In this document: one piece after another, positions 5,269-59,152 of the stretch
How positions within the stretch are numbered: the stretch's first letter is position 1
Layout of the letters: every line of letters starts with the position of its first letter
From: Clostridia bacterium
Lineage (GTDB): Bacteria > Bacillota > Clostridia > Christensenellales > Pumilibacteraceae
DNA: 64,000 nt
Direction of reading: 5' to 3'
Assembly: GCA_022793815.1 (NCBI GenBank)
Contig: JAAWDP010000019.1
Span: 62,001-126,000 of the forward strand
Made by a program: the position numbers and the translations under genes
The notes under the pieces: model-generated
The model's input: only the letters and a program-made list of their open reading frames with translations
Databases searched by the model: none
Told to the model about the DNA's origin: nothing

Positions 5269-6630
5269 TTATGTTTTCAGCGCGAACGTGACGCCGCTTA
5301 TGCGCGTACCCGTCCCGCAGGAAGATATTTCCGCGCCTATGCGCCGTCCGCGCATGCCTATCTTTACCGTTTTCATGTTTGCGCCGCCTTTCAGCCTGAA
5401 CGTGCGCGTTCTGCCGTCGCATATTATTTTCAGTTCCATATCGGTTGCGGTGTGCAGGCTTGCGCTTTCCAGCGTTTTCATGCGGTCGGTTTTTCCGATA
5501 CTTCCGAGCGGCACGCGCCACACCTTTTTCGTGGGCGTGCCGAAAGCCGCTCCGCACGGCGCAACGGTTACGGCTCTGCCCTGCGACACGGCAGCGAGAG
5601 TGCCGCAGCCGACAAACGAACTTATCTCGAATCCTTCCGAAATTTCCGCATTGCCGCCGAGCGTATCGTAAACGAGCAGGCGGTCGTTTTTTTCGCCGCC
5701 CGACGAATACGCGAGAAAATATTTGCCGTCCGCCCAGTAGCCGACCGCGCCGTCTTTTTTCGGCGTGATGCTTCCGAGCGATTTGAGAACGGGCGCGGTG
5801 GAAAGTCCGTCGAACACGTTGAGTCCGCCGTCCGAAAGGAATATGACTTTATCGCCGCACACCGCCACGCTGGACGGATAGATTCTGCCTGCCGACACAT
5901 AGAGGTTGGACACGGAAAATTCGCTCTGGTCGGCGTATGCTATCATGCGCGAAATACCGTAGTCGCGGAATATGTAGACGTAGTTCAAAAACGCCACTAC
6001 TTTATTGGATTTTCCGTAACCGTCGGCAAGTTCGACGAAGCCGCCCGAATCGAGCGACTGCGACCAGTTGGTCGGGTCCAAATCGTCGGAAAACCGCACG
6101 CTTGTCACAGCGTCCGCGCTTGTCACGAACAGCCGTTCGTAGTGCAGAGCCATGGACGTTATTTTAGGCGAGGACTCGACCATGCGCGCGGTTTCGCCGT
6201 CGTATACCGCCATGCCGTCGACGGAAGAACAGATGAGCGATACGTCCGTGCCGTAAAGGCGGTAGTCGGCTGCCGACACCGTGCCGCGGGCAGTTATTCC
6301 GTCGAGTATTTCGTCCTTGCCTCCTTTCACGGCGTGGACTCTGCCGCTGCCGTCGCAATACATCGGCGTTACAGTTTCGCCGCCGTCCTCCGTTTTTTTA
6401 TACAGCCAAGCGTATTTCACGTCTGCCGCTCCGCCCAAAAGCGTGCACTCCTCTATGCCCCAGCCGTCGGTCAGCACGCCCTCGCGGATACGGAAATTTT
6501 TGTACTTCGACGCATACGCGGCGTTCACCGCCGACTCGTCGTGAACGAAATCCGCGCCGCCGAGATAGTCGGATATTTCGATGCGCGAGGCGCGTTGTCC
6601 GCTCGGCAAAAGATAAGGATTTTTTCTCAC
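5269..6630 (-). CDS. Putative tail hub / packaged-DNA stabilisation-like protein (P22 gp10-like)
   Basis: 453 residues. The start is GTG at 6628-6630, overlapping the preceding stop (GTGA) and preceded by AGGAGG; the longer upstream frame is a shadow. Residues 130-390 contain propeller-like repeats (YERLFVTSADAVTSVRFSDD, VCGDKVIFLSDGGLNVFDG) and a DPTNW motif reminiscent of phage stabilisation/tail-hub proteins that close the portal after DNA packaging. It follows the portal-capsid-connector order of P22-type phages. The match is by motif and gene order only. Confidence 0.66.
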   Translation of the reverse strand: MRKNPYLLPSGQRASRIEISDYLGGADFVHDESAVNAAYASKYKNFRIREGVLTDGWGIEECTLLGGAADVKYAWLYKKTEDGGETVTPMYCDGSGRVHAVKGGKDEILDGITARGTVSAADYRLYGTDVSLICSSVDGMAVYDGETARMVESSPKITSMALHYERLFVTSADAVTSVRFSDDLDPTNWSQSLDSGGFVELADGYGKSNKVVAFLNYVYIFRDYGISRMIAYADQSEFSVSNLYVSAGRIYPSSVAVCGDKVIFLSDGGLNVFDGLSTAPVLKSLGSITPKKDGAVGYWADGKYFLAYSSGGEKNDRLLVYDTLGGNAEISEGFEISSFVGCGTLAAVSQGRAVTVAPCGAAFGTPTKKVWRVPLGSIGKTDRMKTLESASLHTATDMELKIICDGRTRTFRLKGGANMKTVKIGMRGRRIGAEISSCGTGTRISGVTFALKT

Positions 6631-7181
6631 CCGAGCCACCTCCTGCGCGGCGTTTTTCTGCCGCTGTTGAGGTGCAGCAGCATGCGTTCGAGCGCGTCGC
6701 GGTAACGCTTGTCCCACATCTGCGCGTCCGACGTCTGACCGCTCATCAGAGAGTATTCGGTCGCAGCGCCGTAGGCGAGTACGCGCAAAGGCACAACGGA
6801 GTCCTTCCACGGCATTTCGCCGCCGAGCGCCGTTTGGGGCGGTTTAAACGCATATTTGACTTTGACCGTGCCCGAGCAGCCGAGCTGCAGCGAGTCGTAC
6901 AGCCTTTCGAAAGTCAGATTCGCTCCGCCGCGTTTGACACGCAGTACGGCTATCGGTTCGCGCTCGAAATCCCCGTATTTTATTCTCTTGTCTTCTTTGA
7001 CATCAAAGGTCTGTTCGCTTATGAGCGGCACGTAATCGCGCGCGATTTCGTCCGCCGTATAGCCGACTGCGGCGAGCAGTTTTTCCCTGTCGCTTTCCTC
7101 CAAAATCTTTTCGCCGCTTTCGTTTTCCGAAAACAAGCCGAGCATACGCGCGCACTCGTTTATTACATCTTCCGTCAGCAT
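6627..7181 (-). CDS. Head-completion / head-tail connector protein
   Basis: 184 residues, mostly helical, beginning MLTEDVINECARMLG and ending in a basic RRRW tail. The length, position right after the capsid block and the C-terminal region with EYSLMSGQTSDAQMWDKRY fit connector proteins that attach below the portal (gp4/gp6-like role). It overlaps the upstream 116-residue gene by 7 bases and the downstream gene by GTGA. Family assignment is by position and general resemblance. Confidence 0.68.
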   Translation of the reverse strand: MLTEDVINECARMLGLFSENESGEKILEESDREKLLAAVGYTADEIARDYVPLISEQTFDVKEDKRIKYGDFEREPIAVLRVKRGGANLTFERLYDSLQLGCSGTVKVKYAFKPPQTALGGEMPWKDSVVPLRVLAYGAATEYSLMSGQTSDAQMWDKRYRDALERMLLHLNSGRKTPRRRWLG

Positions 7182-7525
7182 ATTCCCTCCTTTTCATGAG
7201 CCGCGCCGACCCTCGCCGCCGCGCTTTCCATTGCGGCGCTTATCCTCTGCCGCTCCGTTTTTTCCGCTTCCCGTTTCATGTCGGCAAGCAGTTCGTCCGC
7301 GCGTTCGCGCCTTGTCCGTCTTACGAAATCGACGGCGCGTTCGTCCAGCGTTTTATACGGCAGCGTAACGCAGTGCGTGCTGCCTTTCTGCGCCATGCTG
7401 TGCACGCTTAGCGTTCCGCTTTTTCTTTCGCGCAGTACGAAATAGGTTTCGTCTATCTCTTTGAGCCGACGCACGATTGAATATAAATCGCCGCCGACTT
7501 CTTCGTATTTCAATATGTCCGTCAT
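7175..7525 (-). CDS. Conserved small phage protein
   Basis: 116 residues: a compact N-terminal domain (LKEIDETYFVLRERKSGTLSVH, then TLPYKTLDERAVDFVRRTR) and a charged helical tail. Proteins of this wording accompany head genes in clostridial short-tailed phage modules, but no function is established to my knowledge. It is the first gene after the repeat-bearing gap that splits the operon behind the capsid gene. Confidence 0.66.
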   Translation of the reverse strand: MTDILKYEEVGGDLYSIVRRLKEIDETYFVLRERKSGTLSVHSMAQKGSTHCVTLPYKTLDERAVDFVRRTRRERADELLADMKREAEKTERQRISAAMESAAARVGAAHEKEGIC

Positions 7526-7575
7526 TGTTTTTCCTCCCGCCCTCCCTCTTTTTGTTTTGTTGTGTTTTTATAAGG

Positions 7576-7606
7576 TGCAGACCCCTCGACTTCGCTCGGG
7601 GTGACA
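7576..7606. repeat. Dispersed short palindromic repeat, copy 1
   Basis: Contains CCCCTCGACTTCGCTCGGGG, an imperfect palindrome. Related copies are at 14782-14806, 16539-16566, 54321-54349 and 54394-54426, always intergenic. Translations of this kind of repeat (CHPERS, FLDCARND) are familiar spurious peptides in many bacterial genomes. Confidence 0.85.
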
Positions 7607-7651
7607 AATTAAATAGCCGGGGCGACATTTAATAATTTTACGGCGACCGAC

Positions 7652-7770
7652 GGCAGAGAAGCAAGCATTTCGAGGAAAAAAGGTTCTTCGCGACGGGGCA
7701 TGTACACCCCCGTACTTGCCCCCGAGCGAAGGTTCTTTTTGACATAGAAATGCGACGCTTATATGCCTTC
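7652..7770. repeat. Long-hairpin repeat element, copy E1
   Basis: About 119 bases forming one long imperfect palindrome: GGCA...TGCC ends, AAGC..GCATTT against AAATGC..GCTT, then CGC..GGGGCA.GTAC against GTAC.TGCCCC..GCG around a short loop. It shares GGCAGAGAAGC and TGCGACGCTTATATGCCTTC with copies at 7781-7901 and 54466-54585. The stems differ from those copies in paired positions. Together with E2 it fills the 376-base gap between the capsid gene and the next gene; I see no coding capacity there. Confidence 0.88.
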
Positions 7771-7780
7771 GGAATAAGAA

Positions 7781-7901
7781 GGCAGAGAAGCGAGCAGTGC
7801 AAGGCAAGAGGGTTTTTCCCGACGGGGAGCGTACTTTTATGTACGTGACCCGAGGGAAAGTTCCTCTTAACGTAGCAATGCGACGCTTATATGCCTTCGA
7901 C
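7781..7901. repeat. Long-hairpin repeat element, copy E2
   Basis: About 121 bases in tandem behind E1. Stem: AAGAGG/CCTCTT, TTTCCC/GGGAAA and CGTAC/GTACG around a TTTTAT loop. Its right edge is flush with the capsid stop codon (TCA at 7902-7904 on the plus strand). Very similar to the copy at 54466-54585, which is also flush with a stop codon. Confidence 0.9.
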
Positions 7902-9059
7902 TCAGGTGCGTGTTATGCCCGTCAGCTTAGCCTGCCCGTTAGGTCTGTCGCAAATCAAGTCGCAGTATTTGACCAAAGTGGCGGTGTACGTGGGCTTGCC
8001 CTGCGTCTGGCGGAGTATGCGTCCGTTCTCGGTTTCGAGGTAGCGCCAGTCGCACAGACGGTGGAGTTTGAACGACTCGGTGTTGAGCAGATACATGCTG
8101 CCGTCTTCCACGAAACGGTCGTAGACGAGCGGTATGCCGTTATACGACAGGGTTTTGAATCCGCCCTCGAGCTGCATTACATCGATGTTGCGTTTATACT
8201 GCGCCATGTATTCCTGGTAGGCGTATTTCGCGGTTGCCGAGCACGCGATGAAATCGACCTGACTGCCTGCGTTCATTTCGAGGCGGTCTATCGCTTCCTG
8301 CAAGGCTATCTCGTCTATCGCGCCGCCGACGTCTTTCGTGTAGGGTTTGAGGAACGGATAATCCGCCCTTTTGAGCCCGTATATGTCCTTATCCGAAAAC
8401 AGCGCGGCAAGTCCCGTTATCTCCTTGTCCTTGCTGCCCTGCACGTACAGCACGCTTTTGTCCGTGATTGCGGCAGACGGTTCGGACGTGAACGTGATTT
8501 TTTTGCCGTCGCGGTCCACGCTTGCTATGCGCAGCGCGGCGTTCGAAACAGTGCCCGACGGCGTGTAGACGTCCACCACCAGTCCTTCGATAAGATTGTT
8601 TACGCCGTCCACGGGATATTTGCCGTCGCTTGCCGCACCCACGGTGCAGAGCCTGCCGCTGCCATCGCCGTAAAGCATTCTGCCCATGTTGAATTTGGAC
8701 GCGGTGAGCAGTCCTTCCATTTCGGCGTTGAGCAAATCCGTGAACGCGCCGCGCCCGTCTGCGGACGCGCGTATCGCCTTGTCGGAAATTTCAATCTGAC
8801 CGTAAAGATTTTTGAGCGTCGTGACGAACTGAACGTAGTTGTTCGAGTGCGCCTGAGGCAGTGCGCCGTCTTCGTCGCCTGCGCCCACGCCGCCGTTTAT
8901 CCCCCAGCTTGCCGCCTTGCGTATCTCCTTGCCCCACACGTCGCCGGACGTTTGTTCTATCTTGGTGAGCAGCGGATTGACTTTCGTATTGAGAAGTTCC
9001 GTCACCGTTCCCAGATAGACCGATTTCAATGCGTTTTCCGCATTTTGCAATGTTACCAT
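7902..9059 (-). CDS. Phage major capsid protein
   Basis: 385 residues. The N-terminal arm (MVTLQNAENALKSVYLGTV) and the central block with DVWGKEIRKAASWGINGGVG, GQIEISDKAIRAS and EMEGLLTASKFNMGRMLYGDG resemble HK97-fold major capsid proteins of Firmicutes short-tailed phages. It follows the scaffold gene after a 53-base gap, as expected for the scaffold-coat pair of a procapsid. The gene is intact, with no internal stop, despite repeats sitting directly behind its stop codon. Confidence 0.9.
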   Translation of the reverse strand: MVTLQNAENALKSVYLGTVTELLNTKVNPLLTKIEQTSGDVWGKEIRKAASWGINGGVGAGDEDGALPQAHSNNYVQFVTTLKNLYGQIEISDKAIRASADGRGAFTDLLNAEMEGLLTASKFNMGRMLYGDGSGRLCTVGAASDGKYPVDGVNNLIEGLVVDVYTPSGTVSNAALRIASVDRDGKKITFTSEPSAAITDKSVLYVQGSKDKEITGLAALFSDKDIYGLKRADYPFLKPYTKDVGGAIDEIALQEAIDRLEMNAGSQVDFIACSATAKYAYQEYMAQYKRNIDVMQLEGGFKTLSYNGIPLVYDRFVEDGSMYLLNTESFKLHRLCDWRYLETENGRILRQTQGKPTYTATLVKYCDLICDRPNGQAKLTGITRT

Positions 9060-9112
9060 TCGATTATTCTCCTTTTGGTTTTTTCTTTATCCCGACCGCC
9101 CGCCCGTTTGTT

Positions 9113-9487
9113 TCAGCGCGAGCTCAAAAACAGCTCGCACAGTTTTTTCGCTTCTTCGAGCGACTTAGCCCCGAGCGGCGGCGCAAGCGCGCCCGTGCCG
9201 GCAGGCATGGACGGCGAGTGGCGCACAAAACTTTTCAGATAGTCGTCTATCACCGCGCGGCGCACATCGTCGCGGCTAAGCACGTACTCACTGACAAAAT
9301 CGGCGTCGTCGAGAAGCCGCGCCGCGGTCTTTTTGACAAGCGCGAGCGTTTCTACGTCGAGCGACGGTTTTTGCAATTGTGCGTCGTTTTCCGCCGCGGA
9401 CTGCATTTGTCCGACGTTTTGCGCCGGCTGCCGCGTTTTTGCGACGGACGCCGTCCGCGAGTCTGTTTTTCCGACTTTATTCGACAT
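9113..9487 (-). CDS. Phage scaffold-like protein
   Basis: 124 residues, hydrophilic, rich in Gln, Ala and Lys in the first 45 residues, then helical segments (LALVKKTAARLLDDADFVSEYVL) and a C-terminus ending ELFLSSR. Small helical acidic/basic proteins between portal and coat genes are typically scaffolding proteins that shape the procapsid. Its ATG overlaps the end of the portal gene by 11 bases. Sequence identity to a known scaffold was not established. Confidence 0.68.
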   Translation of the reverse strand: MSNKVGKTDSRTASVAKTRQPAQNVGQMQSAAENDAQLQKPSLDVETLALVKKTAARLLDDADFVSEYVLSRDDVRRAVIDDYLKSFVRHSPSMPAGTGALAPPLGAKSLEEAKKLCELFLSSR

Positions 9488-11336
9488 TTTGCGACACCTC
9501 CTTCAAAAAGCGTTTATGCTCGTTTATGTGAGCCAACAGCGCGGCGCGCGCCGCCCGTCCGCGACGGTGGGCGAAATTGGAATCGGTGAGCGCATAACGC
9601 GTGTGACGCGCTATATGCAGTTCGTGATTGTCGAGTTCGCACACCTGCAAGTCTTTGCCGTCCGCGGCGGCGTTCTCCCTGTCCGCGCGCTTGGCGTGAA
9701 CGGCGCGCTCGTCGCTTTGCGATTCCCAGCCGCCGTAGCCCAAAGTGTCGAGCACCTTATAGCGCGTTTCCTCGTCGAGCCGTCCGTCGCCGTCCTGCAA
9801 AAGTCCGCTTTTGAGCAGTTCGAACAGCGTGTTGCGGCGCACGGCGAGCGTGGTGGAAAGCTCGTTTTCCGTATCGAAAACCACGTCGTCGCAGCTTATG
9901 TCGCCGCCGGTAAAAGTCATGAGTTCGACATCGCCGTTTTCGCCGACGAAGCGCGTAAGCCTCGGACGCGAGGCAAACTGCTTGTAAAGCCGCAGTACGT
10001 GCCTCCCTATTTCCCTTGCCGCGCCGCGCACGAGTTCGGCGCTGACGCTTAACCGCGTGTCGTCCTGTTCGATGAGCAATTGAAGCGCGACGCCGCTGGT
10101 GACGCTGCTCGGCACGGAGGATGAACGCATTATTTCCGACACGCCGCTGACGGCGATAAACTCGTTTAAAAGGCGGTCTTCCTCGGCGGCGAAATCGGAC
10201 GGGACGTCGCCGCAGTTCATAAGGCGCGGCGGCTGCGAGCCCTGACGGTAGACTATGATTTTGCCCGGCGAAAGTCCTTCGTCGGCGAGGTTGTCGAGGT
10301 CCACGCTTCCGTCCTCCACCGTGAGCACGCCCATGGCTATACGGTTCAAAAACTCGTGCTTGCGGTTTTTGACGGCATTGTACGCGCGTTGCAGCGGTAT
10401 AAGCCGCTCGACCATGCTCTGACCGAAGAAACAGCCTGCGCGGCGCATACAGTCCTGTTTTACGAAAGGGAAGTCCCTCGCCCCGTCCGCGCCGTTTATG
10501 TAAGGGAGCTCTCCGAAATGCAAAAGTTTTCCGCCGGCAACCGCTTCGAACGTGCCGTTTTCGCGCCCCTCGCTTGCCAGCGTATAGCGTTCGATTACCA
10601 GCGCGCACCCGTCCTTTTTGCCTGCCGCCGTACTCGCGGTCATGTCGCTGCGGTTGATACCGCCGCTTACCGCTCCGAGCGAGGGCAGCAATATATCGAC
10701 CTGCTCCGGCTTCACCTTTACGCCGTAGACGCGCTCGATGTCGGCAACGGGCACGGCGCGCGCATGAATCAGCGAGCGGCAGTCGCCGAGAGAGCCGCAG
10801 TCGGGCGAATCGGGATATATCTCGTAAGGCGGGCAGACCTCTATTTTCACGTCGCCCTCGAACACGGGGCGCGAGTCTATGCTGCCGACTTTTCTGCCGC
10901 CGCAATCGTTCCAAGTTATCTTGTAAAACACGCTTCCCGTGATTTCCGACCACATTGCGCCGTCGCTCAAAACGCCGTCGAGATTGTGTGCGGCATTTGC
11001 GCTGGCGAGTATTTTGCTTGCGGCGGACGCGGTTTTGATGTCGCTGTCGTCGCCCGACGCGGGACGCACGCTCATGACGGGACGCACTCTGCCGAGCTTG
11101 GCAAGACGGGTTTCGACGACCGAGGCTATGTGATTGTAAACCTCGCGCTCCTGCCAGAAATAGTCCTTTTCCTCGTCGGACACCGCGCCGCACGGGTCTA
11201 TGCAGCAGAACTGGTTGCCGAGTACGAAATTCGTATTGAGCCGCCACTGCGCCTCGAATCCGCGGCGAACCTGCCTGCGGCGTTCGTAGTCCGCCGTCAC
11301 GCTTTGCACCACGCCGTCTTCGAAAACTTTATCCAC
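9477..11336 (-). CDS. Phage portal protein
   Basis: 619 residues, the length range of short-tailed phage portals. The N-terminal region has RRRQVRRGFEAQWRLNTNFV and a WQEREVYNHIASVVETRLAKL segment, followed by the wing/stem with FFGQSMVERLIPLQRAYNAVKN and a helical C-terminal crown. The portal dodecamer is the DNA channel and docking site for terminase. It overlaps the zinc-finger gene upstream by 8 bases and the scaffold downstream by 11. No frameshift is visible, so the gene appears maintained. Confidence 0.92.
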   Translation of the reverse strand: MDKVFEDGVVQSVTADYERRRQVRRGFEAQWRLNTNFVLGNQFCCIDPCGAVSDEEKDYFWQEREVYNHIASVVETRLAKLGRVRPVMSVRPASGDDSDIKTASAASKILASANAAHNLDGVLSDGAMWSEITGSVFYKITWNDCGGRKVGSIDSRPVFEGDVKIEVCPPYEIYPDSPDCGSLGDCRSLIHARAVPVADIERVYGVKVKPEQVDILLPSLGAVSGGINRSDMTASTAAGKKDGCALVIERYTLASEGRENGTFEAVAGGKLLHFGELPYINGADGARDFPFVKQDCMRRAGCFFGQSMVERLIPLQRAYNAVKNRKHEFLNRIAMGVLTVEDGSVDLDNLADEGLSPGKIIVYRQGSQPPRLMNCGDVPSDFAAEEDRLLNEFIAVSGVSEIMRSSSVPSSVTSGVALQLLIEQDDTRLSVSAELVRGAAREIGRHVLRLYKQFASRPRLTRFVGENGDVELMTFTGGDISCDDVVFDTENELSTTLAVRRNTLFELLKSGLLQDGDGRLDEETRYKVLDTLGYGGWESQSDERAVHAKRADRENAAADGKDLQVCELDNHELHIARHTRYALTDSNFAHRRGRAARAALLAHINEHKRFLKEVSQNVE

Positions 11337-11544
11337 GTTTGAAATTCTCCTTTTTCTTTGCGGTTTCCACGCTTTTCGGCACGACGCTTCCGCCTATCAG
11401 CGCGTACAGGTCGTTGAGGCACTTTTCGCACACGTGCAGGCGCGAGCCTATGCCTACGCGGTTGAATTTGATTGTTTTCGTCGCGCGATTATTGCACGCG
11501 CCCATTTCGCATTTTATTTTGTACTTCGTGTCTATAAGTTCCAT
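11329..11544 (-). CDS. Small zinc-finger phage protein
   Basis: 71 residues with two Cys pairs (CEMGAC and CEKC) spaced as in a four-Cys zinc ribbon, and a basic C-terminus. It lies between the TerS-like and portal genes and overlaps the portal start by 8 bases. Function unknown; nucleic-acid or protein binding is plausible from the motif. Confidence 0.72.
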   Translation of the reverse strand: MELIDTKYKIKCEMGACNNRATKTIKFNRVGIGSRLHVCEKCLNDLYALIGGSVVPKSVETAKKKENFKRG

Positions 11545-11554
11545 TTTTCCCTCC

Positions 11555-11836
11555 TTACAGTTTCAGTTGTTTTATGAGTTTTCTGCACAGCGACAAAAGC
11601 TCTTCGTCGCTCATCTGCTCCGCCGCGCCGTCCGAGCCGCCGGGTTCCGGCGCAAGCAGAAGTTTTGCCGCCGACACGTCGCCCGCGACTTCCTTTTTGG
11701 TTATGCGACGTTTGACGAGAACGGGAATTCCGCCCTCGCCCTCGGGCGCGTATTCCTCGACGCATTCCTCGGTTTCGTAGCCCAGCGCACGCCTTATCAT
11801 TGCGCGCTCCACCTCTCTTCTTTCGTCTTCGCTCAT
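11555..11836 (-). CDS. Conserved protein next to TerL, possible small terminase subunit
   Basis: 93 residues starting MSEDERREVERAMIRRALGYETEE, with a middle strand region (PVLVKRRITKKEVAGDVSAAKLLL). Its ATG overlaps the TerL stop (ATGA). Proteins with this pattern adjoin large terminase genes in Firmicutes phages and are sometimes labelled small terminase or XtmA-like. The canonical small subunit normally precedes TerL and carries a helix-turn-helix; here it follows TerL and no such motif is clear, so the role is uncertain. Confidence 0.66.
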   Translation of the reverse strand: MSEDERREVERAMIRRALGYETEECVEEYAPEGEGGIPVLVKRRITKKEVAGDVSAAKLLLAPEPGGSDGAAEQMSDEELLSLCRKLIKQLKL

Positions 11837-13275
11837 GCCCTTCTCCCGACAAGCCGCACCAGTCTGTCCTTGAATTTCTTTTGTTCGCTATGCGTTTTCG
11901 GCAGTATTTTGGGCGGCTCGGGACGGCTCATAAGATAGTAGCGCAGTTCGTCCAGCGCGTGGTCGTCCTTTTTGACGGGCGTATCGCCGCTTCCCCAGCG
12001 ATAGGTTTTAAGTTCGCGTATAAGATTTGTACAGCACGGAAAAACGTAAAGTTTGGGCTTGCCGTTTTCGCCGCGCAAATACTGTTTGACGCGCGCAATG
12101 CCCGAGTAAAGCGTTTTGTCCACCTTGGGATTGACCGCCACGCCGAGTTCGGCGAAAAGGTTTGTAACGCTTTTTTCGCTTGCCAACGTCTGCTGGTTAG
12201 CCGCGCTGTCTATGAGCGCGCCGACCCGACCGAAGCCGTCGCGCTTCCAGCCGAGCGCGTCGGATATGCGTTTTATTTCGGCGGCGTGCGAGGCGATGTC
12301 CAGCCCCGAGGCATAATGCTCGGCTACGACGAACACGCTGCCGTCGCCGTCCACCGCATACCAGTGGCACGAGGTGGGATTGTTGAGTCCCGGGTCTATC
12401 GACAGTTTGTCCTGCCACTCGGGCGGCACGTCGAACCCCTCTTTCAGCACGTGTACATTCTCGTCGAACTCGGGATAGACAAGTCCGCTTTTGTCGGCGA
12501 ATTTTCCGTAACGGCGGCTTTGCAGCGACAGTTCGTCGAGGTTTGCCGTGGCGCGCTGTATCTCGTTTTTGTCGAGAAACGGATTGTCCGCCCACTCCAT
12601 GGTTTCGTGCCACACCTCGGCGTCTCCGCTTTTGTTCATGTAAATGCGGTCGTAGACGAATGTCATGCCTTTGAGCGGCGTCATGGTTCCGAACACGTCG
12701 CCCTTGCGGTCGATTACGCGCATACAGCATTCGTCGTAGACGTCCTCGGGCGGTTCTTCGTCGAACCATACGAAGTCGAGCGACGCGCCCTGAAACTTCT
12801 CCCTGCCCATTTCGCAGCTTTTGAAGCACAGCGTGGAAATGCCGCCGAACACGTTTTTTACGGCAATCGTGTCTATTATACCGCTGCGCGGCGACGACGC
12901 TTTGCCGCTTTCCATAACTATGTCCGCGATGCAGTCCTTGCGCAGGTAGTCGAGTATTTTCGCTTGCGCGACTTCGCGCTGTACCTGACGGGTGAGCGAC
13001 ACAGCCCAACCGCGCACGTCGCGGCGGTTTTCGCGGTACGGGTGGTTTCCGCGCAGCATCCAAACGGTTTCCACCGCGCCGCATTCGGTTTTGCCGCTTC
13101 GGTTGCCGCCGAATACCCAGCGGTTGCGCTTGCGGCACTTATGGAAAGCAAGCTGTTTTAAATGCACCTTATCGCCGACATTGTACTTTGCAAGCCTGTC
13201 CGCCTTGCCGCGGCGGAGCAATTCGTCCGCCGCGCGCACAAGCGACAGCATATTTCTGCGCTCCTGCGCGTCCAT
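11833..13275 (-). CDS. Phage terminase large subunit
   Basis: 480 residues from the ATG at 13273-13275, preceded by AGGGGGGAC; the longer open frame upstream overlaps the divergent gene. ATPase domain: Walker A GGNRSGKT (56-63), Walker B LDFVWFDEE (166-174), coupling motif GTMTP (196-200). RNase-H-like nuclease: SIDPG with Asp294, ALIDSA with Asp356, and KKDDHALDE with Asp437/438. All catalytic residues expected for a headful or cos-cutting motor are present. It is the first gene of the minus-strand assembly operon. Confidence 0.95.
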   Translation of the reverse strand: MDAQERRNMLSLVRAADELLRRGKADRLAKYNVGDKVHLKQLAFHKCRKRNRWVFGGNRSGKTECGAVETVWMLRGNHPYRENRRDVRGWAVSLTRQVQREVAQAKILDYLRKDCIADIVMESGKASSPRSGIIDTIAVKNVFGGISTLCFKSCEMGREKFQGASLDFVWFDEEPPEDVYDECCMRVIDRKGDVFGTMTPLKGMTFVYDRIYMNKSGDAEVWHETMEWADNPFLDKNEIQRATANLDELSLQSRRYGKFADKSGLVYPEFDENVHVLKEGFDVPPEWQDKLSIDPGLNNPTSCHWYAVDGDGSVFVVAEHYASGLDIASHAAEIKRISDALGWKRDGFGRVGALIDSAANQQTLASEKSVTNLFAELGVAVNPKVDKTLYSGIARVKQYLRGENGKPKLYVFPCCTNLIRELKTYRWGSGDTPVKKDDHALDELRYYLMSRPEPPKILPKTHSEQKKFKDRLVRLVGRRA

Positions 13276-13310
13276 AAAGTCCCCCCTGTATTTGTATTTT
13301 CGAAACGGTT

Positions 13311-13336
13311 TTCGACACGCTTCGACATTTTGCGAC
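13311..13336 (-). promoter_or_regulatory. Three 10-bp-phased direct repeats upstream of TerL
   Basis: On the minus strand GTCG(C/A)A recurs at exactly 10-base steps (plus-strand T(T/G)CGAC at 13311, 13321 and 13331), about 36-61 bases upstream of the TerL ATG. I see no sigma-A -10/-35 pair for TerL in this 108-base divergent region, so an activator- or alternative-RNAP-dependent late promoter is plausible. The 16-base core at 13321-13336 recurs exactly at 9480-9495. Confidence 0.55.
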
Positions 13337-13369
13337 TTTCCCCTTATTCTACCGAGTGCGGCTCTCGGA

Positions 13370-13375
13370 TATAAT
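13370..13375 (+). promoter_or_regulatory. TATAAT box directly before the SH3-like gene
   Basis: A perfect TATAAT ends 8 bases before the ATG at 13384, leaving room for little or no leader. The -35 region (about 13347-13352, TTCTAC) is poor. Confidence 0.5.
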
Positions 13376-13383
13376 AGTCTATC

Positions 13384-14106
13384 ATGACAAAAGTATTTTC
13401 TCTGTTGATTTGCATGTTTTTCGCCGCCGCGCCGCAGAGCGCGAAATATGCGTGCATGGAAAAAGGCGCGACGCTTTACACGCTTACCGAAAGCGGTTAC
13501 GAACAGACCGCGTTTCTGCCTGCGACCTATTTCGTCACGGTAGTAAAGGACGCGGGCGACGGTTACAGCCTTGTTTCCTATCTCGACGTCGTAGGCTACA
13601 TGAAAAACGACGAATTGAGCGGCGTTGACTTTGTTCCGAAAGTAAAATACGCAAGCGCGCGTTTCACGGTTTCCAACGACTCGCAGCCTGCCAATCTGCG
13701 GCTTAGACCCGGCAAGGATTCGCCCGTGTCGGAAGTTATGCCGAGCGGCGAAAGCGGCACGGCGATAGGCACGATTGAGGGCGACGAACTCATAAGCGGC
13801 GCAGGCGGAAAATGGTATTACGTGCGTTACGAAAGCGGCGGCGAATACCGTTACGGATATGTATACGGCGCGCATGTGAGCGTAGAGGCGTTCGGCGAAA
13901 ATACGTTCGAAGCCGAGCCGTCGCCGCCGTCGCACGTCACGGAAAAACAGGAACCGTCCTACTCGGGACTGTCCCTGCCTTTGCAAACAGTATTGATTGT
14001 GTGTCTTTGCACGCCCGTTACAGTCGGCGCGTTTATGCTGAGACGTAAGCCGAACAAGGCGGCGCGTCCGGAATCCGAGCAGCCGAACCGACAGTATCGC
14101 GGCTGA
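13384..14106 (+). CDS. Secreted or membrane-anchored SH3-like protein
   Basis: 240 residues. Signal peptide at 1-20 (MTKVFSLLICMFFAAAPQSA), a first beta domain with YFVTVVKDAGDGYSLVSYLD, a bacterial-SH3-like segment at about 95-160 (ANLRLRPGKDSPVSEV, then GKWYYVRYESGG and YGYVYGAHV), a Pro/Glu-rich linker and one transmembrane helix near 198-216 with a short basic tail, so the domains face outward. SH3-type domains often bind peptidoglycan. It reads against the phage operon from a shared intergenic region, and its 3' end overlaps the convergent regulator gene by 74 bases. It may be a host gene rather than part of the module. Confidence 0.78.
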   Translation: MTKVFSLLICMFFAAAPQSAKYACMEKGATLYTLTESGYEQTAFLPATYFVTVVKDAGDGYSLVSYLDVVGYMKNDELSGVDFVPKVKYASARFTVSNDSQPANLRLRPGKDSPVSEVMPSGESGTAIGTIEGDELISGAGGKWYYVRYESGGEYRYGYVYGAHVSVEAFGENTFEAEPSPPSHVTEKQEPSYSGLSLPLQTVLIVCLCTPVTVGAFMLRRKPNKAARPESEQPNRQYRG

Positions 14107-14766: not shown

Positions 14767-14781
14767 GCTTTTTTATATAGT

Positions 14782-14806
14782 GGAGATTCCTTCGCTTCGG
14801 TCGGGG
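14782..14806. repeat. Dispersed short palindromic repeat, copy 2 (diverged)
   Basis: GGAGATTCCTTCGCTTCGGT followed by CGGGG, a diverged copy of the family at 7576, 16539, 54321 and 54394, located between the icd stop and its terminator. Confidence 0.65.
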
Positions 14807-14841
14807 CGGCAGTCAAAGAAAGGGTCGGAATGAGAATTTAA

Positions 14842-16163: not shown

Positions 16164-16526
16164 ATGAAAGAGACAGACAAAATGAATATGGAATGGTTTA
16201 TAACCGAGGTGATTGACGACTTTAAAAATTTGCAAGCCGTTGCCGAACTGTTTTTGGATGTGTTCTTAGAGTTATCGTATAATAATATGGACGAGTGCCA
16301 TGCTTTACAGTATAAACAGTTATGCTCCCTCGCAGATATTATGGGGGCTTATGTTCGCGAGTTCGAATCGAAACTGGGAGCTTTGCATGATTACGAGGAA
16401 CTTGTAAGCAAAACGATTACGGACACGTTTTTCGTTGACGCTACCGCTTTGCCCGTCGAGGGCAGTTGCTGTCTATCCGAAACAAAACCGCCATATTTGA
16501 AAGTATACAGGGAAAAGAAAGATTGA
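16164..16526 (+). CDS. Small hypothetical protein, AT-rich
   Basis: 120 residues from the ATG at 16164 with AAGGATGG upstream; an earlier in-frame start at 16104 lies before this ribosome site and is disfavoured. Predicted mostly helical (MEWFITEVIDDFKNLQAVAE) with no signal peptide or membrane helix. Codon use differs from neighbours (TTA, AAA, ATA and TAT common), suggesting acquisition. It is divergent from icd and convergent with ddl. No family recognised. Confidence 0.6.
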   Translation: MKETDKMNMEWFITEVIDDFKNLQAVAELFLDVFLELSYNNMDECHALQYKQLCSLADIMGAYVREFESKLGALHDYEELVSKTITDTFFVDATALPVEGSCCLSETKPPYLKVYREKKD

Positions 16527-16538
16527 ATTTTCTAAGGT

Positions 16539-16566
16539 GGAGATTCCTCGGCTGCGCTCGGAATAC
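16539..16566. repeat. Dispersed short palindromic repeat, copy 3
   Basis: TGGAGATTCCTCGGCTGCGC followed by TCGGAAT; intergenic between the small AT-rich gene and the end of ddl. Confidence 0.75.
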
Positions 16567-53588: not shown

Positions 53589-54296
53589 TCATTCTCCTTT
53601 CGAATACTTCGAAAATATTTCGTTGCATTTTTTCATGAGCGCGTCGTCTGCGGCGGGCACGCCTTTCAGAGGATAGTCGAGACCGAGTTTTTCCCACTTG
53701 GCAATGCCCATGGTATGGTAGGGCAGCAACTCGACTTTTTCCGCGCCGACCGACAGCTGCGCGAGATTTTTCAGGTTTTCTTCGCCGTCGGTTATGCCGG
53801 GGACTATTACCTGCCGCACCCAAAACGGTATGCGGTTTTTTTTGAGATATGCCAGCGTCTTAAACGTATTGTCCGCGCCGTGCATACAAAGATTTTCGAA
53901 CGCCGCCGCGTCGGTATGTTTGATATCGAGTATCACCAGAGAACAGGCTTTGAGTATTTCCTCGTCGTACACGCTGCCCGAAGTATCGAGCGCGGTATGA
54001 ATGCGGCGGCGTTTCAGACTTTTCAGAATTTCGAGCGCAAACCTACGCTGCATGGCAGGCTCGCCGCCCGAGAGAGTAACCCCGTTTGTAAACGCGCGGT
54101 CTTTCAAACAGCGGTCTACGACTTCTTTTGCGCTCATTCTTGCGCCGCCGCCGACAGCCGCGTCGGGGTTGTGGCAGTATTTGCAGCGCATGGGACAGCC
54201 CGACAGAAACACCACCGTTCTCAGTCCCGGTCCGTCGTGCGCCCCTACGGGCTCTATCGAATGTACGCAGCCGTAAATATCGTTTTCTTTGTTCAT
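53589..54296 (-). CDS. pflA: Pyruvate formate-lyase activating enzyme
   Basis: 235 residues. Radical SAM cluster CPMRCKYCHNPD (CxxxCxxC), GGEPAMQ SAM-binding segment and DIKHTD. It installs the glycyl radical on PflB. It follows pflB after a 289-base gap that holds repeats. The N-terminal sequence YGCVHSIEPVGAHDGPGLRTVVFLSG contains the usual DGPGLR motif. Confidence 0.96.
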   Translation of the reverse strand: MNKENDIYGCVHSIEPVGAHDGPGLRTVVFLSGCPMRCKYCHNPDAAVGGGARMSAKEVVDRCLKDRAFTNGVTLSGGEPAMQRRFALEILKSLKRRRIHTALDTSGSVYDEEILKACSLVILDIKHTDAAAFENLCMHGADNTFKTLAYLKKNRIPFWVRQVIVPGITDGEENLKNLAQLSVGAEKVELLPYHTMGIAKWEKLGLDYPLKGVPAADDALMKKCNEIFSKYSKGE

Positions 54297-54320
54297 AGCG
54301 GTTTGATAAAGTTTTTTTAA

Positions 54321-54349
54321 GGCTCAGACCCCTCGACTGCGCTCGGGGA
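54321..54349. repeat. Dispersed short palindromic repeat, copy 4
   Basis: CAGACCCCTCGACTGCGCTC followed by GGGG; nearly identical to copy 1 at 7576. Both are followed by the same 16 bases TACGGCGACCGACGGC (7639-7654 and 54354-54369). Confidence 0.85.
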
Positions 54350-54365
54350 GTTGTACGGCGACCGA

Positions 54366-54457
54366 CGGCGGATAAACGAGCAGAATTTTCTGAGGATGAG
54401 ATTCCTCGACTGCGCTCGGAATGACAGAAAAGTAAATGCGAAGCCTATACGCCGTAG
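54366..54457. repeat. Mosaic repeat: outer arms of the long-hairpin element around a short palindromic repeat
   Basis: The arms (CGGCGGATAAACGAGCAGA on the left, AAATGCGAAGCCTATACGCCG on the right, with CGGCG/CGCCG pairing) resemble the ends of E1-E3, but the centre is copy 5 of the short repeat (54394-54426, GATTCCTCGACTGCGCTCGG). Confidence 0.65.
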
Positions 54458-54465
54458 GAAAAGAA

Positions 54466-54585
54466 GGCAGAGAAGCAAGCAGTGCAAGGCAAGAGGGCTT
54501 TCCCGACGGGGAGCGTACTTTTCTGTACGTGACCCGAGGGAAAGTTCCTCTTAACGCCGCAATGCGACGCTTATATGCCTTCGAC
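54466..54585. repeat. Long-hairpin repeat element, copy E3
   Basis: About 120 bases, nearly identical to E2 at 7781-7901. Flush with the pflB stop codon (TTA at 54586-54588 on the plus strand). With copies 4 and 5 and the mosaic it fills the pflB-pflA gap, where I see no gene. Confidence 0.9.
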
Positions 54586-56811
54586 TTAGGTGGTTTCGAA
54601 GAATGTGCGCTTCAATACCTCTTCCCTGTGCTTTCTGCTGAGCACGCCGAAACGGACGGCATAGCCCGAAACGCGAATGGTGAGGTTGGGATATTTTTCG
54701 GGATGTTCGTGCGCGTCGTAAAGCATGCTTTTGTCGTAGACGTTGACGTTGAGGTGATGTCCGCCCTTTTTGAAATAGCCGTCTATAAGGCTGACGAGGT
54801 TTTCTTTCTGTGTGTCCAAATCCTTGCCGAGCATACCGGGCACCATGCCGAACGTATTGGAAATACCGTCGCGGCAAGCGGCATAGGAGAGTTTGGACAC
54901 CGACGAAAGCGAGGCTATCGCGCCGCTGTGTTCGCGGTTGTGGAGCGGATTCGCGCCCGGCGCAAACGGTTCGCCCGCTTTCCTGCCGCACGGCGTCGCG
55001 CCCGTCTTTTTGCCGTAAACGACGTTGGACGTTATGGTGAGCAGCGACAGCGTGTGTTTTGCGCCGCGGTAGGTCTTGGTCTTTTTGAGCATTTTGGAAA
55101 ACTCTTTGACAACGAATGCGGCTATCGAATCCACACGGTCGTCGTCGTTGCCGTACTTGGGATAGTCGCCCTCGGTCTTATAATCGACTATAAGACCCGT
55201 TTCGTCCGTAACGGGCGTGACGGACGCGTATTTTATCGCGGAAAGCGAATCCGCAACCACGCTTATACCCGCCGCACCGAAAGCCATAAGACGTTCGACA
55301 TGCGTATCGTGCAATGCCATTTCGAGTTTCTCGTAGGCGTATTTGTCGTGCATGTAATGAATTATATTCATCGTGTTGACATAGGTGTGCGACAGCCATT
55401 TCAGGTATTCGAGATAGCGCGCGAGCACTTTGTCGTAGTCGAGTCTGCCCTCGTTCATCGGCAGGCTTTTCGGTCCTATCTGCACGCCGCTCACTTCGTC
55501 CCTGCCGCCGTTTATCGAAAGCAGCAGAAGTTTGGCGAGGTTGCACCGAGCGCCGAAAAACTGCATTTGCTTGCCTATTTTCATGGCGGACACACAGCAT
55601 GCGATACCGTAATCGTCGCCGTAAACGGGGCGCATTATGTCGTCGTTTTCATACTGTATGGACGAGGTTTGCGCGGACACTTTCGCGCAGTATTTTTTCC
55701 ACGGCGCAGGCAGATTTTTGGACCACAGCACCGTGAGATTGGGTTCGGGCGACGAACCGAGCGTATACAGCGTATGCAGAAAACGGAACGAGTTTTTCGT
55801 CACCAGCGGACGCTTGTCCTTGCCTATACCGCCGACGGACTCGGTAACCCAGGTAGGGTCGCCTGCGAAAAGTTCGTTGTATTCGGGCGTGCGCAGCTGC
55901 TTTCCGAGGCGCAGTTTCATGACAAGCTGGTCAATCAATTCCTGTGCGCCGCGCTCCGTCAAAACGCCTTCTTCGATGTCGCGTTCGATATAGATATCGA
56001 GGAACGTGCTTATTCTGCCTATGCTCATTGCCGCACCGTTCTGTTCTTTGATTGCGCCGAGATAGCCGTAGTACGTCCACTGCACCGCCTCGCGCGCATT
56101 TGCCGCGGGCTTTGTGATGTCGTCGCCGTATTCCGCCGCCATTTTGGCAAGCTTGCCCAAAAAATCCATTTGTCGGAACACGTCTTCGCGCAGTCTTATC
56201 ACTTCGTCGCTCATGTCGAGCGCGCCGAGAGCGTCAAAGTCTTCCTTTTTCTTTTGGGTCAAAAAATCCGTTCCGTACAGCGCGACACGGCGGTAATCGC
56301 CGATTATACGTCCTCTGCCGTATGCGTCGGGCAGTCCCGTGAGTATTCCGTATTTGCGCAGCATGCGCATTTCGTCATTGTACACTCTGAACACGCCGTC
56401 GTTATGAGTAGTCTTGTATTCGAAATTGGCTTTGATTCTTTCGCCGAGTTCGTAGCCGTAAGCCTCGCATGCCTGTTTCGCCATGCGCATGCCGCCGAAC
56501 GGATTTACAGTACGTTTGAGCGGCGCGTCGGTCTGCAAACCGAAAATGATTTCCCTGTCCTTATCTATATAGCCGGGAGCGTAGGACAAAAGCGACGAAA
56601 CGTGCTCGGTATCCACGTCGAGCACCCCGCCCTTTTCGCGTTCGAGTTTGAAAAGCTCTTCGATTTTGCCGTTTAAATATTTCGTGTTCTCGGAAGCCTC
56701 CGACAGAAAGCTCTCGTCGCCCGTATACGGCGTATAGTTAAGTTGAATAAAATCTCGGACGTCTATTTCTTTCGTCCAGTTGCCTTCCTTAAAGTTCTTC
56801 CACTCGTTCAT
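54586..56811 (-). CDS. pflB: Formate C-acetyltransferase (pyruvate formate-lyase)
   Basis: 741 residues from the ATG at 56809-56811 (GGAGGTTATTC upstream). Active-site Cys405-Cys406 in [12 protein letters not shown] and the glycyl-radical Gly716 in RVSGYAVRF are present. It cleaves pyruvate with CoA to acetyl-CoA and formate under anaerobiosis; activated by PflA encoded downstream. It overlaps the GH2 gene by 23 bases. Confidence 0.97.
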
Positions 56812-59152
56812 GAATAACCTCCAAATCAATAGACACTTCTTTATAGCGCGAGGACACCGTTACGCGGGCATGTCCGTCGTAGGGCGTGGTTGCGAGAAAG
56901 AATCCCACGGCGCCGCCGCGCAGCGACAGCATGTTTTCTCCGATTAGACGCAGTTCCCCTTCCACGCTTATATTTACCGGCGAGAAATCGTAATCGAGAA
57001 TGTTCCCCGCTCCGTCGGTGCTCTGTACGGTGACAAGCACGGTTTCGTAACTCGCCGACGGGCGTATCACGGTTTCGCTTGCCGACAGTTTCAGACCGTA
57101 GCACTCGTCGGATGTGATACGGCGCTCGACGGCGACTGCGCCGTCGATTATGCCCTCGGCGGAAAATACCGCGGGCGCGTAAGCGTATTTGTGCACAAGT
57201 TTGCGGAACTGCGCCGTTTTGAGCCTGAGCACTTTTCTCAAAATGAATGCCGCGATTTTTTCGAAAAGGGTCAAATTGAACAACCCTTCTCTCTTTTTCA
57301 CCTTACCGACTATATATTTGAATATCTTTGCCGTGCGCGCTCCCATTTTCTCCTCGTCCGCAGCCAAAAAGCCGATAAAATCGGTTATTTCCACGGGCGG
57401 ATGCGGAAGATGTTTGTATTTGTTCTTCGACGGGAAATACTCGCCGACAAGCTTGCCGTCGCGGTAAAGTTTCACGCTGTCGCAGTTTGTGAATATTCTA
57501 AGCGTTCCGTCGAATTCGTCGGGCGCGAGCGAAGACGAAGGCTGCAAGAAGGGCTTGTCCTTGCCTTTGAGGCTCATGTATGCGTAAGCCGCGGTCTTGG
57601 GCACACGGTATGCGTCGGTAACGCCGTAATACATCACGCCGTCGCCGCTTCCGTCAATGCTGCCGAAATCCGCAAAGCTCATGCCTGCCGCGCCGCTCAC
57701 GTTCTTGTTCGCAAACGCCTCGTCGATAACGCGGAGATGACGCAGAGCCTGTTCCGTTCTGCGCGCCTCGCCGTCGCAACGCTTTGTCGGAAACAGTCTG
57801 CCCGTGTGTTCGGAAACGAAATACGGAACGAAGAGCCGACATGTTTTTTTAAGGCGGGACAGTCCGCCGCTTTTTTTGTAATCGTTATAGGCGAACACGT
57901 CCTCGTAAAGGCGGCTGCCCATGAAGTTGCGCGAACCCATCGTGGCGCGCGTCGGGTCGTTTTCGTGCGCAGCTTTGCACGTCTTGAAATAGAGTTCGTC
58001 GCAGTCGGGCGAGTTGTTTACTCTTACGCCCCAGGCGATGACGGACGGACTGTTGCGGTAGCTTTTTACCGTATCTTCCACGGTCTTGACAAGCGCGGTT
58101 TTCCACGCAGAGCCGCCGATGTAGCCGTTGCCCGATATGCCGCTGACGACAAGCAGACCTATGCTGTCGCATTCATCGATAAAACTCTTATCCGCAAGTC
58201 CGAGCGTGCGCACGACGTTGCAGCCGAGTTCCTTTATTTTCCGCGCGTCGAAGCGTTGCAGCGATTCGGTCGCCGCTCTGCCCACCACGGGGAAACAGTC
58301 CTGACGGTTGAGCCCTATGAGTTTCAGACGGGTCCCGTTCAAGTAGAATCCGTCGCGTTTGAATTCCGCTTTTCTGAAACCGAAACGGGTGCGCGAAACG
58401 TCGAGTATTTCGTCGCCGTATTTTAAGGTTACGACTGCGTCGTAAAGCACGGGATTTTCCGTACTCCAAAGCGAAACGCCGCTTAAAACACCTTTAAGCG
58501 TGACCTCACGGCTCAAAACGGTTTTACTCGGCAAACGCCCCGCTATCGCTCCGTCGGCGTCGAAGATGTCGCACCAAAGCGTTGCTTCGGGATAGAAATC
58601 GCCGAGCGTGACGTCGATTTCGGTTTCCACTCCGCCCTCTTCGAACTTGGTGGTTTTGACGAAAGTGTCGGCGATTTCCGCGCCGTCGACCACCGAAAGC
58701 CACACGCGGCGGTGAATGCCGCCGTAAGCGGGAACGGGTCCGAGTCCTATCGAAAGCGGCACGTCGCGTTTTATCACGCTGTCCACTTTTACTACGACGC
58801 AGTTTTGAAAACCCGCTTTGAGCGGAGCGGTAACGTCCACGGTAAACGGCGAATCGCCCTTATGCGACGTTACGAAAACTCCGTTTATATATATCTCGGC
58901 ATACGAGCTTATTCCGTCGAATTTCAGTTCGAGCCGACTTCCGCTGTACTTCTCGTCGAGCGCGATTATTCGCATATAAGTGTAGACCGCTCCGCGCGGT
59001 TCGCGGCGCGAATAACTTACGGGCGACGGCGCGGCATTATGCGGAATGGATACGGGATAAAAGTTTTCGAATTCGTAGCGCGCGTCGAGCATGCTCCTCG
59101 AAAAACCATCGCAAAACAGCCAGCCGTCGTTTAACGGTATAAGTCTTTTCAT
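56789..59152 (-). CDS. Glycoside hydrolase family 2-like protein lacking the acid/base glutamate
   Basis: 787 residues, no signal peptide. N-terminal jelly roll ([12 protein letters not shown] to [12 protein letters not shown]), immunoglobulin-like domain, TIM barrel from about 270 ([13 protein letters not shown]), then C-terminal domains. The nucleophile Glu448 is kept ([16 protein letters not shown]), but the acid/base loop normally WGVRxNES reads WGVRVNNS (374-381), with Asn380 for Glu. It resembles beta-galactosidase-type GH2 enzymes. The substitution predicts strongly reduced hydrolysis or a binding role. It overlaps the P-type ATPase gene by 4 bases and pflB by 23. Confidence 0.9.

Follow-up and report, generated by a model that had tools for sequence, protein, structure and literature searches.

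An ERIC-related DNA hairpin, probably mobile, behind stop codons in a Clostridia genome and in distant bacteria

The hairpins repeated in the window, the 64,000-nucleotide stretch analysed here (C11:62001-126000 of the organism's own 1.71 Mb genome, G000), probably represent a non-autonomous mobile DNA element some 120 bp long. We read it as a homologue of ERIC, part of a superfamily that reaches across many phyla of bacteria, with a preference for gene ends; its mechanism of movement is one that we infer. The hairpins have structure and motifs in common with ERIC and form multi-copy families in distant genomes. Their pairing is kept at the level of DNA, filled sites have empty orthologous counterparts, and placement at stop codons is one-way. 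An earlier note on this DNA had described a repeated hairpin with compensatory stem changes; that the family is akin to ERIC, extends over phyla and sits at stop codons lay beyond its reach.

The hairpin copies and their compensated stems

Three copies of an imperfect hairpin of about 120 bases had been reported in the window, and all three are real, with coordinates correct within 3 nt (Table 1). Each forms a single long hairpin, with RNA z from -8.7 to -8.9 on the + strand and 0 dinucleotide shuffles folding as well; under DNA parameters, unit 1 reaches -35.5 kcal/mol (z -8.4) on the + strand and -28.7 on the - strand. The list of three missed a decayed fourth unit, whose centre is occupied by a second dispersed repeat (GTCATTCCGAGCG...). 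In sense orientation a unit reads GAAGGCATATAAGCGTCGCATT...GGTCACGTAC-N6-GTACGCTCCC...GCACTGCTCGCTTCTCTGCCTTC, and the window copies end in GAAGGC...GCCTTC or GCCGTC. Units stand single or in tandem, with spacers of 5-7 nt. Outer and middle stems vary from copy to copy with complementarity kept; what is conserved is the tip, together with a few of the internal loops. The paired stem swaps described between copies (GGGGCA.GTAC/GTAC.TGCCCC versus GGG.GCGTAC/GTACGT.CCC, and GCATTT/AAATGC versus GCAGTGC/GCAATGC) are present in the sequence, except that GCAGTGC/GCAATGC retains one mismatch.

Table 1. Hairpin units and neighbouring genes in the window; coordinates of units 1 and 2 and of the pfl hairpin are those of covariance model R2
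Feature	Coordinates	Strand	Evidence and remarks
ERIC-like hairpin unit 1	7778..7898	-	R2 109.9 bits, E 7.1e-30; fold z -8.9
ERIC-like hairpin unit 2	7649..7770	-	R2 68.5 bits, E 2.8e-17; fold z -8.7; tandem with unit 1, 7-nt spacer
ERIC-like hairpin behind pfl	54463..54582	-	R2 110.5 bits; fold z -8.9
Decayed fourth unit, tandem with pfl hairpin	54364..54456	-	R1 25.3 bits, E 0.005; weak fold z -1.6
Phage major capsid protein, host gene upstream of units 1/2	7902..9059	-	NF033394 271.7 bits; phrog_14242; stop TGA 3 nt before hairpin
Pyruvate formate-lyase (pfl), host gene upstream	54586..56829	-	TIGR01255 1132.9 bits; stop TAA 3 nt before hairpin
Pyruvate formate-lyase activating enzyme, gene downstream of pfl hairpin	53589..54296	-	TIGR02493

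The second dispersed repeat, of GTCATTCCGAGCG...CGAGGAATCTC type, occurs at 7563-7602, 14768-14807, 16525-16564, 54310-54349 and 54383-54422, often downstream of hairpins and once within the decayed unit. The capsid gene belongs to a Podovirus-like head module on the - strand (5269-13986) together with genes for an internal virion protein-like product (5269-6810), a portal (9477-11336) and a terminase large subunit (11833-13986), and its ortholog in the sister species G001 also has a hairpin behind its stop.

About 25 copies occur in G000 and 69 in G001, with at least one in 20 of the 41 genomes searched (the own genome and relatives). Among 12 G000 copies, 19 of 35 pairs changed on both sides and 94.5% of cells were paired; none of 500 shuffles was as high, and slid controls gave 37-50%. 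Across phyla, a 66-copy alignment had 32 of 35 pairs changed on both sides and 89.8% of cells paired (slid controls 36-52%), including all 7 outer pairs, so that outer stems vary freely among copies. The proposal of a multi-copy family with compensatory stem changes therefore holds: collecting the genomic copies yielded further members, and no shuffle reached the observed covariation.

Kinship with ERIC and spread over phyla

The enterobacterial repetitive intergenic consensus (ERIC, also IRU or RU-1) has been placed in Enterobacteriaceae and Vibrionaceae (PMC10969869). Like the window elements, it is a single long imperfect hairpin of about 120-127 nt in dispersed intergenic copies, with a central GTCAC-stem-GCTCC tip and GCGTTG...CGCCTTGC motifs; the hairpin tip resembles the ERIC centre reversed, as read from the consensus printed in PMC2759123. 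Model R2, trained on 66 copies from which Enterobacterales were left out, recovers E. coli ERIC at two loci, ybhJ/ybhI and pgk/fbaA (E 3.7e-8 and 6e-7; the tool itself warns that such values are approximate). It also recovers the Citrobacter and Serratia copies that had been kept out of training, and a scan of the Serratia genome gives 55 copies, which makes the hairpins relatives of ERIC. E. coli ERIC was found only by this broader model and not by the narrower R1. Differences from ERIC concern the ends, the stems and the orientation. The window copies, whose ends were read directly, have neither the TATA-type termini nor the terminal 5' TA given for ERIC and show no clear TA target duplication, and are therefore relatives of ERIC rather than ERIC proper. 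Outer stems of ERIC-like hairpins are genome-specific, and the strong one-way orientation behind stop codons is weak in Serratia ERIC. Searching full-text literature for the core-motif letters returned, among the matches listed, unrelated papers only.

The Rfam family RF02818 (V_AS5, a Vibrio antisense RNA) gives a full-length match below threshold to E. coli ERIC (46.9 bits against a gathering value of 96) and to Serratia ERIC, whereas the window elements match no Rfam family at gathering. The ERIC copies L179:559-682 and L103:4281-4405 are such full-length matches below gathering. From these alignments, V_AS5 may itself be an ERIC copy.

Among GTDB species genomes, at least 118 contigs contain the tip pattern; the matches listed come from Clostridia, Bacilli, Coriobacteriales, Desulfovibrio, Porphyromonas, Pseudomonas, Sulfurospirillum, Seleniivibrio, Verrucomicrobia, Lentisphaerae, Myxococcales, Alphaproteobacteria and others. 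R1 recovers full-length hairpins around most of these loci; since the tip pattern was the criterion for choosing them, tip conservation there holds by construction, and the remaining structure is independent of that choice. Whole-genome counts, made with no tip preselection, are 91 in Desulfovibrio A2, 57 in Nitratidesulfovibrio, 65 in Porphyromonas somerae, 46 in Seleniivibrio, 26 in Pseudomonas tumuqii, 21 in a Verrucomicrobia MAG and at least 150 in a deltaproteobacterial MAG. Presence is patchy: of 298 further genomes sampled from the phylum, 30 match at 1e-6, which indicates that the model is selective. Plasmid and phage collections contained no similar DNA for the two queries used. Several copies in distant bacteria have a 16S rRNA or tRNA gene as neighbour. 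Directly beside L069:2437-2556 there is a 16S match; the neighbours of L129:76-193, L124:836-952, L112:1147-1259 and L131:4255-4336 were judged by eye from the flanks.

Stop codons and DNA-level pairing

Outside Serratia, a sense stop lies no more than 12 nt from the 5' end in 28 of 53 copies, against an antisense stop at the 3' end in 0 of 53; an earlier, partly overlapping sample gave 19/40 versus 0/40. The bias is weak in Serratia (9 sense versus 2 antisense within 12 nt). Open reading frames came from a simple script that may include spurious ones, on both strands alike. In most clusters of G000 and G001 the stop of the upstream gene either is supplied by the element, at -2 or -12, or falls a few nt before it, and copies with a larger gap sometimes lie behind a terminator U-tract (L191, L196, L206). 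Compact operons with little other neutral space may add to the pattern. A replication-strand bias, considered because strand was uniform per contig, was dropped, as Desulfovibrio contigs carry both strands and the direction of the upstream gene explains the orientation better.

Sense placement directly behind stop codons, together with strong folds and covariation, is what a structured RNA of the 3' UTR would show if selection on the transcript kept it for stability, processing or termination. ERIC is reported to alter mRNA stability in Yersinia (PMC2229807), and the weakly matching V_AS5 is an ERIC-like antisense RNA in Rfam. The types of pair argue otherwise. Across the 66 copies, paired columns hold 44 G-U and 47 A-C cells (binomial p 0.83), with no G-U excess; 81 copies of G000 and G001 give 73 versus 70, and a third set, outside Serratia, 40 versus 50. 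The control of 48 tRNAs from the same loci has 66 G-U versus 0 A-C, a generous control in that ARAGORN, which defined the stems, tolerates G-U but not A-C. Since G-U is no commoner than A-C in the hairpins, their sense-strand pairing is not selected as RNA. Sense-strand mismatches are mainly pyrimidine-pyrimidine (168 versus 11, summed counts), equivalent to purine-purine on the opposite, non-coding strand, which folds better as DNA. Several copies sit just past intrinsic terminators, outside the transcript, and presence at orthologous genes is patchy. A structured RNA is thus an unlikely explanation, and the functional RNA suggested by the earlier note did not find support.

Filled and empty sites and the candidate movers

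At the pfl site, G000 carries a 300-nt insert that is absent from G001, where the flanking matches lie 26 nt apart. Relatives G002, G005, G010 and G019 have hairpins of their own at this site, R2 confirming those of G000 and G005 only and the other three being recognised by folds, two of them with a similar tip; congeners G001, G021, G024, G071 and G077 have none. Ten G001 insertions were checked in G000, where nine sites are empty and one holds a remnant, and at the sites examined the insertion falls no more than about 12 nt from the native stop. The direction of change, gain versus loss, is read from outgroups at pfl only, and no clear target-site duplication was found at the copies. The suggestion of a mobilised hairpin DNA of MITE type finds support. 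A MITE of a DDE transposase would be expected to share conserved terminal inverted repeats with a full-length IS; in these copies the outer stems vary freely, and the search for a parent element covered the Y1 family. Eight Desulfovibrio A2 sites were compared with Nitratidesulfovibrio, and at six of them both flanks match there and enclose a gap as large as the element or larger, so the copies at these sites appear to be retained and the sites are not empty; on these alignments many copies are old, and their movement may lie in the past.

One aligned Desulfovibrio/Nitratidesulfovibrio pair combines compensated stem changes with block replacement of both arms. Such replacement would be expected if the hairpins were passive long quasi-palindromes in which template-switch correction and inter-copy recombination maintain the match between the arms, and whose distribution reflects ordinary duplication and purifying selection. 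Intrastrand template switching could keep the arms complementary without selection, and low G-U is equally expected under correction at the DNA level. Arm correction would, however, erase the conserved internal loops, and passive palindromes fit poorly with motifs common to distant phyla and with orientation-specific placement at stops; this account is judged quite improbable.

If the hairpin is instead a mobile DNA element, its mover has to be sought. The earlier note had named a REPIN as one possibility, an element whose single-stranded DNA hairpins would be moved by a Y1 tyrosine transposase (RAYT). REP/REPIN elements are likewise long multi-copy DNA hairpins near or overlapping stop codons, and REPs are reported to provide neighbouring ORFs with stop codons (PMC3733652). 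Genomes with elements have Y1 matches somewhat more often (12/20) than genomes without (6/21). G000 has an intact 261-aa ORF resembling a REP-associated tyrosine transposase (L340:730-1515, on G000:C20; NF047646 37 bits, cut-off 80), with no ERIC-like copy nearby. Against a REPIN, the GTAG or CGTC tag of a REP foot is absent from the junction sequences of the copies, and the tip is conserved instead of the ends. The TnpA-REP type transposase that was looked for shows no association with the hairpins: no copy lies within the stretches around the two Y1 genes of G000, and a Pfam search of the 41 genomes gave no Y1 match in G001, with its 69 copies, or in G005, G021 and G038, where a divergent RAYT could fall below the cut-off. 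The REPIN reading therefore lacks support, and movement by a RAYT has a low probability.

Integron attC sites are imperfect hairpins of similar length that lie directly behind stop codons in sense orientation, as these hairpins do. The present copies follow dispersed chromosomal genes rather than forming cassette arrays, and the attC core sites RYYYAAC/GTTRRRY were seen at neither end when the termini were read by eye. No mobilising enzyme was identified among the Y1/RAYT candidates examined.

For the mobile ERIC-like element that we favour, the following route may be envisaged. The element would move as DNA, the strand opposite the coding strand of the upstream gene (the + strand of the window) probably folding as a single-stranded hairpin. 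An enzyme supplied in trans would recognise the tip (GGGAGC-GTAC-loop-GTAC-GTGACC) and the internal purine-purine mismatches, and the new copy would land at a gene's 3' end, where the element edge would often supply the stop codon, as TGA or as TAA 12 nt in. Should the hairpin also act on mRNA from the 3' UTR, as Yersinia ERIC is reported to do, that effect would be secondary.

A broader reading, offered tentatively, is that mobile DNA hairpins which insert one-way at stop codons, moved by an enzyme recognising the hairpin tip, form a bacteria-wide superfamily, with ERIC as its enterobacterial branch. ERIC became known in 1990-91, and no enzyme responsible for its movement is named in the literature cited. 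Should the superfamily be real, co-occurrence would allow its origin, mover and effects on genes to be studied in many phyla, and placement at stop codons together with the empty sites of a sister species gives a direct handle on target choice. The finding also bears on ERIC-PCR typing, which is widely applied outside enterobacteria, and on the annotation of repeats in gut Clostridia. The decades-old ERIC puzzle of gut bacteria may thus be a bacteria-wide one.
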